A stretch of 64,000 nucleotides of DNA from Pyrofollis japonicus (GTDB lineage: Archaea > Thermoproteota > Thermoprotei_A > Sulfolobales > Pyrodictiaceae), in the NCBI RefSeq assembly GCF_033097485.1, contig NZ_AP028634.1, positions 248,001-312,000 of the forward strand. Reading direction: 5' to 3'. Position numbers and translations under genes: made by a program. Below are positions 1,802-26,975 of this stretch, one piece after another (position 1 is the first letter of the stretch; every line of letters starts with the position of its first letter). The notes beneath the pieces are model-generated. The model was not told where the DNA came from and searched no databases. It saw nothing but the letters and a program-made list of their open reading frames with translations.

Positions 1802-3325
1802 TTGGAGGACGCCAAGAACCCTATAGTGCTTATGAAGAGTATTGTCAAGATTTACCCAGATGGTACTGTCGCGCTCCGAGGCGTAGACCTAGCCATATAT
1901 CACGGGGAGATTCTCGGCCTCCTAGGCGAGAACGGTGCAGGAAAGACAACGCTGATGAAGATTCTCTCCGGGTTTCTTCGCCCCACTCGTGGAGAAATAT
2001 ATCTACGGGGGCGGAAGGTCTCATTTCATTCCGCGGCCGATGCCCTCAGCAAGGGTATCGGGATGGTGCACCAGCACCTAGCACTTGTACCTGTCTTTAC
2101 TGGGTATGAGAACATAGTTCTCGGGCTCAAGATCAAGGGGGATGCGCGGCGGGAGATTGAGAAGCTCATGGAGGAGACAGGGCTCCGTGTCCGCCTCGAT
2201 GTGCCGGTTGAGCAGCTGTCTTTCGGCGAGAGGCAAAGGATAGAGATACTTCGTATGCTTCTCCGTAGAGTCGATATATTGATCCTCGACGAGCCCACGA
2301 CTAACCTCACACCGCTCGAGACCAAGGTCTTGTTCCAGGCGTTGAGGAGGCTCCGGAATAGCGGGAAATCAGTGATATTCATTACCCATAAGCTTAGAGA
2401 GGTCTTGGAGATAGCTGACCGCATAGTAGTCATGAGGAGGGGGAGGGTTGTAGGCGAGGTTCCACGAGAGAAGGCAGAGCCTCGCATGCTTGCCCGGATG
2501 ATGGTTGGCAAAGAGGTTTTCCTACGTATTGAGAAGCCTCCGGCCAAGCCGGGTAAGCCAGTACTAAGGGTCGTTGACCTATGGGTGAGAAGTGATACTG
2601 GCGCGTGGGCCGTGAAGGGTGTGAGCTTCGAGGTGAGGATGGGCGAAATCTTCGGCATCGCCGGGGTCGAGGGCAATGGACAGGCCGAGCTAGTGCAAGC
2701 CATCACGGGGCTGAGGAGGGTTGAGAAGGGCAAAGTATTCTTAATGAATGTTGACGTCACTAACAAGGAGCCTGGCGAGCTGTACAAGCTAGGAGTAGCC
2801 CATATACCCGAGGATAGGCGTGCAATGGGCCTCGTCCTCGACATGAGTGTTGCGGAGAACAGTGTGCTCGGGATGCATCGCTGGGAGCAGTTCCGCGGCA
2901 AAGCTGGCGCAATAAGGTGGAGGAGCGTCTACGACCATGCAAGGAAGATTATTGAGGAGTACGAGGTTGTAGCCCCGAGCCTGCGCAGCCCCGTGCGCTA
3001 TCTTAGCGGTGGTAACCAGCAGAAGCTGCTGGCTGGAAGAGAGCTTTCCAAGAACCCGCGGCTAATAGTCGCTGCCCAGCCAACGAGAGGCTTGGACGTA
3101 GCTGCCACCGAGTATATCCGTAAGCTGCTCGTTGACTTGCGCACGAAGGGGCACGCTGTCCTACTAGTCTCCGCTGATACCGATGAGGTTCTACAGCTCA
3201 GCGACCGGGTGGCAGTAATGTATGATGGACGTTTCACTGCTGTAACACGCCCCGAGGAGCTCACAGAGGAGAAGCTCGGCCTCCTAATGGGCGGTATGGA
3301 GGTAAAGGGTCTTGGCTCAAGCTGA
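1802..3325 (+). CDS. double-domain ABC transporter ATPase, nucleoside/BMP type
   Basis: Energises the importer encoded by the flanking genes. It contains two fused ABC domains, as in RbsA/YufO/BmpB ATPases. The N-terminal half has Walker A GENGAGKTT, a signature-like LSFGERQRIE and Walker B ILILDEPTTNL. The C-terminal half has a degenerate Walker A (GVEGNGQAE), a good signature LSGGNQQK and AAQPTRGLD. An intact first site and degenerate second site are normal for this family. The TTG start at 1802 is the upstream choice; an ATG about 30 nt later is possible. It overlaps the next permease gene by 14 nt, which suggests translational coupling. Confidence 0.92.
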   Translation: MEDAKNPIVLMKSIVKIYPDGTVALRGVDLAIYHGEILGLLGENGAGKTTLMKILSGFLRPTRGEIYLRGRKVSFHSAADALSKGIGMVHQHLALVPVFTGYENIVLGLKIKGDARREIEKLMEETGLRVRLDVPVEQLSFGERQRIEILRMLLRRVDILILDEPTTNLTPLETKVLFQALRRLRNSGKSVIFITHKLREVLEIADRIVVMRRGRVVGEVPREKAEPRMLARMMVGKEVFLRIEKPPAKPGKPVLRVVDLWVRSDTGAWAVKGVSFEVRMGEIFGIAGVEGNGQAELVQAITGLRRVEKGKVFLMNVDVTNKEPGELYKLGVAHIPEDRRAMGLVLDMSVAENSVLGMHRWEQFRGKAGAIRWRSVYDHARKIIEEYEVVAPSLRSPVRYLSGGNQQKLLAGRELSKNPRLIVAAQPTRGLDVAATEYIRKLLVDLRTKGHAVLLVSADTDEVLQLSDRVAVMYDGRFTAVTRPEELTEEKLGLLMGGMEVKGLGSS

Positions 3326-10131: not shown

Positions 10132-11249
10132 TGGTCGAAGTAGTCCTCGAGAACATTACTAAGCGCTTCGGAAAAGTAGTCGCAGTAGACAATATCTCCC
10201 TACGCTTCCCCGACGCAAGGTTCTCCGTCCTCCTGGGCCCAAGCGGTTCAGGCAAGACGACGCTACTCTACCTCATCGCAGGCATCTATAAGCCCACAAG
10301 CGGGCGCATATACTTCGGTGACCGCGACGTAACGGATCTACCGCCGGGCAAGCGGAACATAGGCCTAGTCTTCCAGAACTATGCCCTCTACCCCCACATG
10401 ACTGTCTACGACAACATAGCTTTTCCACTTAGGCTCAGAAAGGCACCAGAGTCAAAGATAGATTCAAAAGTCCACGAGGTCGCCAAGCTCCTCCACATAG
10501 AGGAGCTTCTTGACCGTTATCCGGCTCAGCTCAGCGGCGGCCAGCAACAAAGAGTAGCACTAGCAAGAGCACTCGTAAAGGAGCCCGAGGTGCTCTTGCT
10601 CGACGAGCCCCTTAGCAACCTTGACGCATTGCTACGCCTAATGATACGTGCTGAGCTCAAGAGGCTGCAGCGCGAATTAGAGATAACTACTATACACGTC
10701 ACACATGACCAGGCAGAGGCCATGAGTCTAGCAGACATGGTTGTAGTGATAGACAAGGGCCGCGTGCAGCAAATAGGGAGCCCCGACGATGTCTACTATA
10801 GGCCGAAGAACCTCTTCGTAGCAGGCTTCATAGGCTCGCCTCCAGCAAACATGCTTCAAGGCAAAGTCGTTAGGGGAGAAACCGTTGCAATAGAGGTTGC
10901 AGGCTCAGTGGCCCCGGTGAGCGAGAAGTATGCAAAGATACTTGTGGAAGCTGGTCTCGAGGAGATTGTCGTCGCGTTTAGGCCTGAGCATGCCAAGCTC
11001 TCAGCAGAGCCTAGCCCAGGTGCGCTGAGCATTCGCGGCGAAGTATACGCGGTTGAGCCCCTGGGTAGAGAGACTCTCGTGACACTCATCGTTGCGGGCA
11101 CGCCTGTCAAGGTCCTCACACCGCCGGAGGAGAGGCCTAGCAGCGGCGATAACTTGTACATAGTAGTACCCACTGAGAAGGTGATGCTGTTTGACCCGGA
11201 GACCGAGCTAAACCTTGAATACATAGCGGAGACTAAGATGCCGGACTAG
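10131..11249 (+). CDS. ABC transporter ATPase, MalK/UgpC family
   Basis: ATP-hydrolysing subunit of the sugar importer. It has Walker A GPSGSGKTT near residues 36-44, the Q-loop FQNYALYPHM, the signature LSGGQQQRVALARAL, Walker B VLLLDEPLSNLD and the switch histidine in THDQAEA. After about residue 240 a TOBE/OB-fold regulatory region follows, as in MalK and UgpC. The 372-aa length is standard. It ends the operon unless the small ORF at 11276 belongs to it. Confidence 0.93.
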   Translation: MVEVVLENITKRFGKVVAVDNISLRFPDARFSVLLGPSGSGKTTLLYLIAGIYKPTSGRIYFGDRDVTDLPPGKRNIGLVFQNYALYPHMTVYDNIAFPLRLRKAPESKIDSKVHEVAKLLHIEELLDRYPAQLSGGQQQRVALARALVKEPEVLLLDEPLSNLDALLRLMIRAELKRLQRELEITTIHVTHDQAEAMSLADMVVVIDKGRVQQIGSPDDVYYRPKNLFVAGFIGSPPANMLQGKVVRGETVAIEVAGSVAPVSEKYAKILVEAGLEEIVVAFRPEHAKLSAEPSPGALSIRGEVYAVEPLGRETLVTLIVAGTPVKVLTPPEERPSSGDNLYIVVPTEKVMLFDPETELNLEYIAETKMPD

Positions 11250-22897: not shown

Positions 22898-23353
22898 ATG
22901 CGAATACGGCGCGAATCGTACCTATGGCTACAAGCTGCCCGAGAGGACATTGAGGACGCTGAACTGATGCTAGAGGAGGGGAGATGGTTTAGGGTAGCAT
23001 TCTTTGCGCAGCAAGCCGTGGAAAAGGCTCTTAAAGCGCTCTACCCTATTGTTGCGTTGTCTGAGCCCCCGCGTACCCATAGTGTAACTGAGCTGTATCG
23101 GGGACTTGTTAGGGCTGGTTTTCGTCTCCCAAGAGAGCTTGAGGATAAGCTATATATCTTTAACAAGTATTATACTGTGACTCGGTATCCTGACGCGGCG
23201 AACGGGTTACCTTCGGAGAGCGTCGATAAGGAGGAGGCTGAGAGGGCTCTGGCGCTTGCAAAGAGAATACTTGGATTCATTGAGGAGTTCATTAGAAAGG
23301 CTGAGGGCCAGGCAGCTGGAGGAGGCAGTGAGGGCAGCCAAGAGGCTGATTAG
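22898..23353 (+). CDS. HEPN domain protein (toxin-type partner)
   Basis: A 151-aa all-helical HEPN protein. The family features are ARDDI-like AAREDIEDAELML near residue 15, RVAFFAQQAVEKALKAL near residue 30-46, and THSVTELYRGL. HEPN proteins paired with MNT nucleotidyltransferases often form toxin-antitoxin modules in which HEPN is an RNase and MNT modifies it. A strong GAGGGGAG precedes ATG 22898. The last 20 residues are a Gly/Ser tail and overlap the MNT gene start. Confidence 0.88.
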   Translation: MRIRRESYLWLQAAREDIEDAELMLEEGRWFRVAFFAQQAVEKALKALYPIVALSEPPRTHSVTELYRGLVRAGFRLPRELEDKLYIFNKYYTVTRYPDAANGLPSESVDKEEAERALALAKRILGFIEEFIRKAEGQAAGGGSEGSQEAD

Positions 23354-23639
23354 TATCCTTCGGGAGAGCGGTATAAGGGTTGAGGCTGCCTTCTTGTTTG
23401 GTAGTAGGGTTCGAGGGGACTCACTTAGGTTGAGCGATGTTGATCTTGTAGTTGTCTCGCCCGACTTCCAGTCAATGAGGTATAGTGAGAGGCTTGAGCT
23501 AATTTATAGGCTCGAATGGATTCACGGAATTGAGCCCTGGGTTGAAGTTATCCCCCTTACCCCCGAAGAGTTTGAGGAAAAGAAGAGGCACTCTGCTGTG
23601 CTAAGGGATGCCTCACGCTACTGGATAAGAATTGAATAA
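23328..23639 (+). CDS. MNT-type nucleotidyltransferase (antitoxin-type partner)
   Basis: Minimal nucleotidyltransferase with the polymerase-beta-like motif GSRVRGDSLRLSDVDLVVV, including the two metal-binding aspartates. GTG 23328 is chosen because GGAGGAGG lies directly upstream, giving a 103-aa protein of normal length for the family and a 26-nt overlap with the HEPN gene; an upstream TTG at 23256 would give 127 aa. In related pairs the MNT protein AMPylates or otherwise inactivates the HEPN toxin; that is family knowledge, not shown here. Confidence 0.87.
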   Translation: MRAAKRLISILRESGIRVEAAFLFGSRVRGDSLRLSDVDLVVVSPDFQSMRYSERLELIYRLEWIHGIEPWVEVIPLTPEEFEEKKRHSAVLRDASRYWIRIE

Positions 23640-23681: not shown

Positions 23682-25535
23682 TCAGCGAACTCCCCCGCCA
23701 CCGCCGCCGAAACCTCCTCCTGCACCGAATCCGCCACCACCTCCGGCGCCGCCTCTTCTTGTTGCACCATAGGCTGTGCTCGCCGCGCTCCTCATAATTG
23801 GACGCCCAACTATTGGCACCATGGCTTCTCTCGGAATCGGTATGTTCAGCTCCTTCATGGCCTCCACGACTTTGTCTGCTACGCCAAGTGCTGTCGCATA
23901 AACGAGCCACTCCTTCCAAATAACGATATCTTGTGGTGCATACTTCTTTAGCTGTGCCAGATCGCTTAGGAATTTCCTAAACGCCTCCCACTCCAGCTTC
24001 TCCTTGTAGTAATCCCTCTTCCAGCGCCCGAAGACATAGGACGGCATTTTGTACGATAGCACCATCTCTCCTATCAATGTGAAACCATAGATGGCGATAC
24101 GCTGTGGATGGGTATAATAAGCTGGCTTATTCGCAAGCAAAACAATCAATGCAAACACAGCGAAAAACGACGCTACGATTACCCATATTGGTATGGGCTT
24201 TCTCGGCTCAATGAGCTGCTTTACGAGATCTAGTGCTTCACGAGGAGGAGTTCTTAGAGCTTTAAACCAATCAGTATAGCTCTGAGCCGCAGAGCGGTTT
24301 CTTTTAACATCTGCTTCAACCCTCTCCTTGAATCGTTTAAAGCTAAACATGTTCCCCTCGCCAAATCTTCTCAAGAACTCTAGCGTCGTTGACTCGTAGC
24401 CATCGAGCTTCTCATCCCTCTTTATTGCTTCTTCATTTATCTCGAGCACGACATCGTCGTCTCCAGCCTCCCTTATTGAGAGTATCCCGCGGCGTACTAG
24501 GTCAAGGATAGTAGCGTAGAAAGCATTCTCATCCACGTCCATGACGTCCTTGTGGAATACTAGGTTTACTTGCCACGGCTTCCTAGAAGGATTCGGAACA
24601 TAGCTCAGATATTCGGGGACAGTGTATTCCTCCTCCTTACCAACCCTATAGTAGAGCACCACGAGCATCAGGGGGTAAGCTAACACGAGGACTGCAAGAA
24701 GGTATGAGGTTCCTTTGACGAGGCTGTACTTTATGTAGTAGAAGGAGTTTGCCCTAGAAGCCTTAGAGGCCACATCGTTGACGATGATCAAGGGATATTC
24801 TGATAAGTCTAGTAAACTATTCTTGGGCGCTACAAACTCTATTTCAATGAGTGTGTTTGCCGGCGAAGAGCCTGTGACGAGGACTGAGCCCTCTTTGACT
24901 AGTACCTTGTACTCTGGGACATGGACGTAGAGCTTCACCATATCTATGTCGCGTATTTCTACGCTGAAGCTCTTGTAAGGTATGTGCTTCTCTGCAAGCT
25001 TGAGATTAAGATGGGCATACTTGTCGTCAACATGGATTGGCGGGTACAGTTTGAACACATACACCACTCTATATGTGCCAGGACGTATTCCGTGCGGGAA
25101 GTAGCATCCAGCTTCGTTGAAGAACGCCTTCTCTCTAATCGTTTCAACATATCGTTCCAGAATCCCTGGAGACAAGTGCCTCGCGATTAATATGATGCGC
25201 CCAGTATGCTCTTTGACGTATCCTATTGAGCCTTCGGGGCACTCTACGCGCAGAAGCACTATTGAGGGCTCACTAGTCGACGGTGGGAACAAGTAGTAGA
25301 GGGGGGCTCCCCAGTACCGGTATAGCATTGACTTGCCGGAAACACCTACATGGTAAATATATTCCTCTCTTAAGACGAGCTTATTGTTAAGAATAGCGTG
25401 GTAATCTGCATACACGTTGCCGCTTGAGGGCACTAGTTTCGTGGAAGCATAGAGAGATACTGCGCCGATGGCGAGTAGAAGCGCTACATATGTATAGAGT
25501 ACTCTCTTTTCACTCCACACTGCTCTTCTCACCAT
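23682..25535 (-). CDS. DUF2207 membrane protein with glycine-rich tail
   Basis: A 617-aa protein: N-terminal membrane segment (about residues 12-28), an extracellular beta-rich DUF2207 region to about residue 270, then spans near 278-297, 450-468 and 478-495, with a cytoplasmic winged-helix-like part between (YVPNPSRKPWQVNLVFHKD onward). The last 25 residues are almost pure glycine, as in many DUF2207 proteins. It overlaps the end of the LemA gene by 26 nt, a common pairing. Function unknown; an envelope or stress role is usually assumed. Confidence 0.82.
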   Translation of the reverse strand: MVRRAVWSEKRVLYTYVALLLAIGAVSLYASTKLVPSSGNVYADYHAILNNKLVLREEYIYHVGVSGKSMLYRYWGAPLYYLFPPSTSEPSIVLLRVECPEGSIGYVKEHTGRIILIARHLSPGILERYVETIREKAFFNEAGCYFPHGIRPGTYRVVYVFKLYPPIHVDDKYAHLNLKLAEKHIPYKSFSVEIRDIDMVKLYVHVPEYKVLVKEGSVLVTGSSPANTLIEIEFVAPKNSLLDLSEYPLIIVNDVASKASRANSFYYIKYSLVKGTSYLLAVLVLAYPLMLVVLYYRVGKEEEYTVPEYLSYVPNPSRKPWQVNLVFHKDVMDVDENAFYATILDLVRRGILSIREAGDDDVVLEINEEAIKRDEKLDGYESTTLEFLRRFGEGNMFSFKRFKERVEADVKRNRSAAQSYTDWFKALRTPPREALDLVKQLIEPRKPIPIWVIVASFFAVFALIVLLANKPAYYTHPQRIAIYGFTLIGEMVLSYKMPSYVFGRWKRDYYKEKLEWEAFRKFLSDLAQLKKYAPQDIVIWKEWLVYATALGVADKVVEAMKELNIPIPREAMVPIVGRPIMRSAASTAYGATRRGGAGGGGGFGAGGGFGGGGGGVR

Positions 25536-26097
25536 AGAAGGCTGTACTGGGTCTTTGCTCTAGGCCCTCGCCGACTTCGAGATAGGGTAGTTTTTGTAGG
25601 CCAGCAGCGAGGGCTACAAACCTGCTAGGAATAGTATCTATCATTGTATTATATTCTTGGATTATATTGTTATAGGTGTATCTATGCCTAGCTATCTCGT
25701 CCTCGACGCTCTGCACAGCATCCATGAGCTTCTTCACGGTCTCAGCTGTTTTTAGGTCAGGATACTGTTCAACGATTGCAAGTAGTCTGGCCAGTAGGCT
25801 CCTTGTCTCCCTCTCAGCCTGCGCTATTTCCTCGGGTGAAGCAGTAGCTATACGAGACCGAAGCCTTGTGACATTTTCGAGAACGTCTTTCTCGAATCTC
25901 GCGTAAGAAGACACGGCTTCTACGAGAGATGATATTAGGTCAAGCCTTTTCCGGAGAGCGACTCTTATCTGGCCAAGAGTCGCCACGGCGGCATTCCTAA
26001 GCCTCATGAACCTGTTGTAAATGATTATGTAAAACCCTATCACAGCAATGAGTGCAACTAGAATTATTGCCAGGATAACTAGTAAGGCAATGTTCAA
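25510..26097 (-). CDS. LemA family protein
   Basis: About 195 aa: an N-terminal transmembrane helix (about residues 3-25), then YIIIYNRFMRLRNAAVATLG and a long helical bundle ending with the LemA motif NNIIQEYNTMIDTIPSRFVA, where the protein family normally has YN..V..fP. TTG 26097 is preferred because GAGGTGA sits at good spacing; the ORF extends to 26139. It is translated together with DUF2207. Confidence 0.86.
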   Translation of the reverse strand: MNIALLVILAIILVALIAVIGFYIIIYNRFMRLRNAAVATLGQIRVALRKRLDLISSLVEAVSSYARFEKDVLENVTRLRSRIATASPEEIAQAERETRSLLARLLAIVEQYPDLKTAETVKKLMDAVQSVEDEIARHRYTYNNIIQEYNTMIDTIPSRFVALAAGLQKLPYLEVGEGLEQRPSTAFYGEKSSVE

Positions 26098-26294
26098 GAC
26101 AGTCACCTCTCTTCCGGATAAGAGTAGAAAGAACATCATATATAGGTCTATGCTCTCAATGCATTGTCACGACTAAAGACGATAGGAATGAACGCTGTTG
26201 CATGATTTCAAGGTTTTAAGTGTAAGGTGCCGGGCTAGAATAAGCTGGGGATGTTGAGGGCGATTGGGGCTTAGGGGCTGGTAGTGCTGAGCCC

Positions 26295-26975
26295 GTGCTC
26301 CGTGCTGAACCCCTCCTATACTCCCTCCATATGCTTGGGCTGCGCATTGAGTCAAGAACATATGGTGTTTCGGAAATGGTTGTAGAAGGCGATACGAGGA
26401 AGATTGTAATAGTGATGACTGAGGTATCGTTGCAGGAGAGGCTGGGTTGTGATTTTAGCCATATGGGCAGAGACGTCTTCGCAAAATGTGTTGGGGCTTT
26501 AAAGGACAACGAGCTGTTCGTGCTGCTTAAGAAGTTGTTTAGCGCTGGGAGGGAAAACAGGCTTATCTACCTGGGAGATGATGGGGTTCTTGCCTACGTG
26601 TTTGGAGACCGTGTTCTCGACTTGTATGGTTCTAGGACGAGGCTTCGGTGTAGGAGGTGTGGGCATCGCTGGTGGATAACGGAGGGCGATACTTGCCCCA
26701 TGTGTGGTTCCCGCGACTTTGAGCACGATTATGTAAGGATTGGTGAGAGGCCTAAGGAGAGGAGATTGCTAGAGGCTATTTACGAGGCGACTTCTGCAGA
26801 CATAGTAGTCTTTGACTCCTTGCATGATCCTCCGGAGAGTATTGAGCTTCTCTTACTCCTTGTTGCAAGGAGGTTTACCAAGGTGTATTTGTCCGGTAAT
26901 AGGCCAAGCATTATTCCTGCCAGCGTTGTTGAGGAGAGGAGGCTCGAAGAAGTCTTGGAGGATAGGATCTCATAG
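26295..26975 (+). CDS. sirtuin-like protein with intact zinc ribbon but degenerate active site
   Basis: A 226-aa protein with two CxxC pairs (Cys119/122 and Cys134/137) set in a context that follows Sir2 deacylases: GDRVLDLYGSRTRLRCRRCG resembles the sirtuin stretch V-x-ELHG-x-x-x-x-x-x-C-x-x-C, and CPMCGSRDF then GERP resembles CP-x-CGG followed by GE. However, the NAD-loop GAG motif is replaced (VMTEVSLQERLGCDF near residues 40-54), the conserved QN-D motif reads LGDDG, and the catalytic His is Tyr111. It is therefore probably enzymatically dead or altered. GTG start at 26295. A plain zinc-ribbon protein is the alternative call. Confidence 0.5.
   Translation: MLRAEPLLYSLHMLGLRIESRTYGVSEMVVEGDTRKIVIVMTEVSLQERLGCDFSHMGRDVFAKCVGALKDNELFVLLKKLFSAGRENRLIYLGDDGVLAYVFGDRVLDLYGSRTRLRCRRCGHRWWITEGDTCPMCGSRDFEHDYVRIGERPKERRLLEAIYEATSADIVVFDSLHDPPESIELLLLLVARRFTKVYLSGNRPSIIPASVVEERRLEEVLEDRIS

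Follow-up and report, generated by a model that had tools for sequence, protein, structure and literature searches.

A putative pseudo-sirtuin family of the Pyrodictiaceae that lacks the catalytic histidine and the NAD-binding motifs of Sir2

The window analysed here is a stretch of 64,000 nucleotides from Pyrofollis japonicus, whose genome (G000) consists of a single contig of 2.005 Mb. The gene under study is solitary, with genes of the opposite strand on both sides (Table 1). A comparison of gene neighbourhoods across the family loci found no protein-coding neighbours that are conserved between genera, and because the protein neighbours vary by genus, the neighbourhood points to no operon partner. 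Elsewhere in the window, at 22898-23639, two adjacent small genes of 151 and 127 amino acids have, by eye, the appearance of a toxin-antitoxin pair made up of a HEPN protein and a minimal nucleotidyltransferase.

Table 1. Features at the locus of the putative pseudo-sirtuin gene, in window coordinates
Feature	Position	Strand	Remarks
Preceding gene	23682-25535	opposite to pseudo-sirtuin	
Preceding gene	25510-26139	opposite to pseudo-sirtuin	LemA-like, by eye
Probable C/D box sRNA gene	26251-26308	+	overlaps the start of the listed ORF; separate from the protein
Listed ORF, GTG start	26295-26975	+	226 codons, stop at 26975
Pseudo-sirtuin coding region	26376-26975	+	homologous block from about residue 36 (26400)
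First Rossmann strand and helix, residues 36-51	26400-26447	+	from DSSP of the trimmed model; TEVSLQ where sirtuins have GAGxS
GDDG, residues 94-97	26574-26585	+	where sirtuins have the N-V/I-D-G of QNxDG
DLYG, residues 109-112	26619-26630	+	where sirtuins have ELHG
Zinc ribbon, C119-x2-C122 ... C134-x2-C137	26649-26705	+	
EAIYEATSAD helix, residues 160-169	26772-26801	+	best-kept motif of the family, zinc-less relatives included
C-terminal Rossmann half	26802-26975	+	sirtuin GTS (NAD-binding) and INxE lost
Following genes	26989 onward	opposite to pseudo-sirtuin	branched-chain amino acid ABC transporter, by eye

The 5' end of the listed reading frame probably belongs to a C/D box sRNA. The first half of this element comprises a C box (ATGTTGA), guide 1 (GGGCGATTGGGG) and a D' box (CTTA), and the second half a C' box (GTGCTGA), guide 2 (GCCCGTGCTCCGTG) and a D box (CTGA). 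Since the listed GTG sits within guide 2, the first ~12-27 codons of the frame are probably untranslated, and the true start is probably one of two downstream ATG codons, at 26331 or 26376. Archaeal C/D box sRNA genes commonly overlap the ends of ORFs, and in a reporter a 5' overlap of this kind reduced transcription of the downstream gene (PMC7994747).

The segment 26247-26312 is 88% identical to its counterpart in G004, the nearest relative that the search gave for this genome, as against 61% for the alignable coding part. An archaeal C/D box sRNA is expected to be 50-70 nt long and to have C, D', C' and D boxes with guides of 12-14 nt; the element fits this pattern, and its box layout recurs in 11 genomes, at lengths of 51-71. 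The boxes of these elements commonly deviate from the consensus by one or two letters; the element of G006 has UUGAUGA as C' and CUGA as D', and that of G013 has a degenerate C box. Guide 1 is common to these 11 family genomes, sometimes with one change, and guide 2 is variable. The sRNA adjoins the pseudo-sirtuin gene in seven genomes (G000, G004, G005, G006, G011, G013 and G014), two of which (G005 and G006) have it on the opposite strand; in G018 and G008 it lies on a contig other than that of the pseudo-sirtuin, and in G007 and G017, genomes in which no pseudo-sirtuin was found, it lies elsewhere. Guide 1 can form a 12-nt pairing near the 3' end of 23S rRNA, at position 3087 (p 0.013 against shuffles, with no correction for having tried more than one guide), and no good target for guide 2 was found in rRNA. 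A search of Rfam, which holds described and curated families only, gave no match for 26251-26308 up to an E value of 1.

Four genomes, G014, G005, G011 and G018 (loci L085, L086, L087 and L089), have another C/D-like element, which lies upstream of the pseudo-sirtuin gene by no more than about 150 bases and has GGACGCCTGGGC and GCCTGTGCAACG as its guides. Its first guide pairs over 12 nt with position 1848 of the 23S rRNA of G000, and a search of G000 itself with an exact pattern for the element found no match.

The protein had been described beforehand, from its sequence alone, as a pseudo-sirtuin. Taken as a single query, the window protein does not readily reveal such an identity: its best matches are generic zinc ribbons (Spt4, HypA, L37e) that score equal to or above sirtuins, it has no match to Pfam SIR2, and its NCBIfam sirtuin matches are all below threshold. 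A profile built from 27 real sirtuins of the same order gives it 27.2 bits (E 1.8e-7), compared with 5.8 bits for the top scorer among 2,000 shuffled versions of the protein, and masking of the zinc ribbon lowers its score to 2.2 bits, which is chance level. The picture changes when the family is considered, that is, the window gene and eight orthologues from other Pyrodictiaceae genomes. The Pfam SIR2 cut-off is passed by three of the orthologues, those of G013, G010 and G018, the three scores being 41.8, 35.9 and 32.4 bits. Masking of the ribbon does not bring these three down to chance: their E values are then 1.8e-5 to 1.6e-4, in a set that includes the 2,000 shuffles. The kinship with sirtuins is thus not carried by the ribbon alone, and the case depends on the family rather than on the single sequence. 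Against PDB sequences, the nine-sequence profile ranks sirtuins before any other zinc-ribbon family, with Sir2Tm first (2h4h, an H116Y mutant; E 4.6e-12) and Sir2Af2 at E 5.5e-11, and hhalign aligns the family with six real sirtuins across 167 columns with a probability of 99.3. The family profile, the fold matches and the motif losses reported below bear out the original description, and the sequence comparisons establish the descent of the family from a Sir2-type deacylase. An Spt4, HypA or L37e zinc ribbon was dropped as the identity of the family after the orthologues were brought in. Automated annotation overlooks the family, as the window protein with its missing Pfam SIR2 match exemplifies.

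Structure prediction agrees with this assignment. The full ORF yielded a poor AlphaFold model (pLDDT 54) and the protein trimmed to 26394-26972 a better one (pLDDT 70.5, pTM 0.68), both built from two sequences only. In the trimmed model a Rossmann-type fold is predicted, with alternating strands and helices and with the ribbon inserted as in sirtuins. In a Foldseek search with this model the best 50 PDB matches were sirtuins without exception (best E 1.7e-8); their TM-scores are just 0.41-0.56, so that the relative placement of the domains is uncertain.

We compared the motif columns of the 27 real sirtuins with those of the nine family members (sirtuin positions in L028 numbering). The order of motifs is the one that the preliminary description had given: a strand at about residues 36-42, GDDG, DLYG, the two CxxC pairs, GE at 150-151, and lastly DSL at 174-176 after a late strand. 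GAGxS is lost in all nine members; the region of the FRG cofactor loop is gapped in six and unrecognisable in the others; and of the GTS/GSS loop, G192 is found in only three members and S194 in one. Also lost in every member are the Gln and Asn of QNxD, and the catalytic His is Tyr (Y111) throughout, with the Gly of the HG pair retained in 9/9. The sirtuin positions replaced or unconserved in the family include T27, G28, A29, G30, S32, S35-W47 (FRG), Q106, N107 and H112, and further A115, G116, H124, G192, S194 and several Pro; the His of GLH and the AG behind it are among the residues lost. The earlier claim that all catalytic residues are lost holds for the catalytic His, for QN and for the NAD loop, but not for the Asp of QN-D, since D96 is invariant in 9/9.

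The zinc module had been said to be kept, and its four Cys are indeed invariant in all nine main members, as is the Tyr in place of His. The ribbon is, however, absent from two divergent relatives, G006 (165 aa; L092:1771-2268, minus strand) and G019 (190 aa; L093:6285-6857, minus strand); it is therefore not the essential part, and the argument for it as the retained functional part is weakened. Both zinc-less relatives retain the helix, in the form EA-[IV]-Y-x-x-[TS]-T-A-D, the family consensus being E-A-[IV]-Y-E-x-T-[TS]-A-D. Among the invariants specific to the family are Tyr111, Arg116 and Glu160, with A161 and T166 in 8/9 members, and Y92 stands in place of a sirtuin Thr in 8/9.

In a tree, the nine members fall on one side of a branch with support 99/99 and the 27 real sirtuins of the order on the other. 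The family branches are long, indicating fast evolution, and the exact sister group is uncertain for this reason. There are no internal stops within the matches in the nine genomes, and the three closest pairs have dN/dS of 0.26/1.92, 0.25/1.08 and 0.28/1.63 (about 0.14, 0.23 and 0.17), which shows the protein to be under purifying selection. The G005 orthologue departs from the family frame after FTRV, near its C-terminus (L086 near 10280-10349), by a frameshift or a sequencing error. A normal Sir2 is present beside the pseudo-sirtuin in six genomes (G000, G004, G005, G011, G013 and G014); that of G000 is located at about 1390200-1390985 of G000:C1.

Among 214 genomes of the order and 398 drawn evenly from the phylum, the pseudo-sirtuin clade was not seen outside Pyrodictiaceae. 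The remaining matches in these searches lie below 90 bits and resemble normal sirtuins in score and length, and L135, the one weaker match that was examined closely, proved to be a normal sirtuin. Within the lineage, neither the complete genome G007 nor several incomplete genomes gave a match. No phage or plasmid homologue and no match to a sirtuin-type defence system was found; a match on a viral contig (L095) proved unrelated, judging from its ORFs. The family appears to be new, and by these sequence searches it is restricted to the Pyrodictiaceae, a lineage of hyperthermophilic archaea.

From the loss of motifs and established sirtuin enzymology, we infer that the family would be incapable of NAD-dependent deacylation. 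We think it reasonably likely that it is a lineage-specific sirtuin paralogue of Pyrodictiaceae, a pseudoenzyme that carries out no such reaction and acts as a non-catalytic binding protein. The sequences show that its ancestor was a Sir2-type deacylase, that the catalytic His has gone together with GAGxS, the NAD-binding loop, QN and GTS, and that purifying selection maintains the degenerate paralogue alongside an intact Sir2. According to the model, an interaction surface would be formed by what remains of the Rossmann core, including the family-specific helix, and in the majority of members by the zinc ribbon, with the cell's active Sir2 or the target proteins of Sir2 as candidate partners. 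A non-catalytic binding or regulatory role is plausible in these terms, the strongest candidates for a functional surface being the conserved helix together with Asp and Tyr of the pocket. Against this model it may be said that genomic context, with its lack of protein neighbours conserved between genera, backs no specific complex, and that the family evolves fast and has lost the ribbon in two relatives. Moreover, with D96 and Y111 invariant the old active-site pocket is not drifting, which fits a ligand-binding or catalytic role as well and leaves room for a new ligand or enzymatic activity. One may thus imagine a neofunctionalised sirtuin fold whose pocket has been rebuilt (D96, Y111, R116, E160, Y92) for a nucleotide or ADP-ribose-type ligand, with no canonical binding of NAD. 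The pocket positions of the sirtuin Asp (QN-D) and His (HG) are indeed taken by D96 and Y111, real sirtuins lack the invariance of R116 and E160 seen here, and Y92 has replaced Thr almost throughout. However, we found no solved enzyme carrying this set of residues, the glycine-rich first loop is unconserved within the family, the NAD contacts are gone, and the invariant residues may be structural; we hold such a rebuilding to be unlikely, if worth serious attention. That Pyrodictiaceae have put the fold to a new use in ligand binding or catalysis, the NAD/nicotinamide pocket being rebuilt around D96, Y111, R116 and E160, seems to us slightly more doubtful still.

Other explanations fare worse. 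The fast evolution, the loss of motifs, the missing ribbon of two relatives, the lost frame of G005 and the absence from G007 and several incomplete genomes would all suit a decaying remnant of a duplicated Sir2, a pseudogene in progress, but the low dN/dS of the closest pairs, the open frames in nine genomes and the residues invariant across genera make this quite improbable. A noncanonical NAD-consuming sirtuin, active alone or paired with a partner sirtuin, has a precedent in FAM118A and FAM118B, which process more NAD when mixed (PMC12700824). That activity depends on the His and Asn of both partners (PMC12700824), whereas no family member retains His, Asn or the NAD loop, and we regard the idea as very improbable. 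An unrelated protein resembling Sir2 in its ribbon alone could explain why the window protein, queried alone, scores at least as well with Spt4, HypA and L37e as with sirtuins and falls to chance once masked; it does not explain the sirtuin-like score of masked family members, the length of the hhalign alignment or a list of fold matches made up of sirtuins. The family profile, hhalign, ribbon masking and fold matches in combination refute the view that this is not a sirtuin, and we give it next to no credence.

In a limited search, the open-access literature yielded no account of a zinc-ribbon pseudo-sirtuin in archaea. With the canonical Sir2 deacylases (PF02146; Sir2Af1, Sir2Af2, Sir2Tm) the family shares the Rossmann core, the insertion site of the ribbon, the order of motifs, the D of QN-D, the G of HG and the four Cys. 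Unlike them, it is without GAGxS, the FRG cofactor loop, part of the small helical domain, QN, GTS and INxE, has Tyr for the catalytic His, and has a conserved protein of about 190-200 residues as against ~250. The laboratory mutant H116Y of Sir2Tm (2h4h), the top sequence match of the family profile, has the same Tyr at the catalytic position; in it a single residue was changed, and it was deposited, according to the entry title, with a p53 peptide and NAD, whereas in the natural family the parts that bind NAD are gone as well. A natural His-to-Tyr sirtuin, selected for beside an active copy, would provide a simple system for testing the sirtuin scaffold without catalysis and for asking, for example, whether such a scaffold regulates the active Sir2. 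FAM118A, FAM118B and other SIR2_2 sirtuins are likewise relatives of the sirtuin fold that lie off the canonical scheme, and the FAM118s act as a pair (PMC12700824). The zinc module is missing from the FAM118s and from ThsA, and the FAM118s retain the His and Asn of the active site (PMC12700824); the Pyrodictiaceae family is the reverse.
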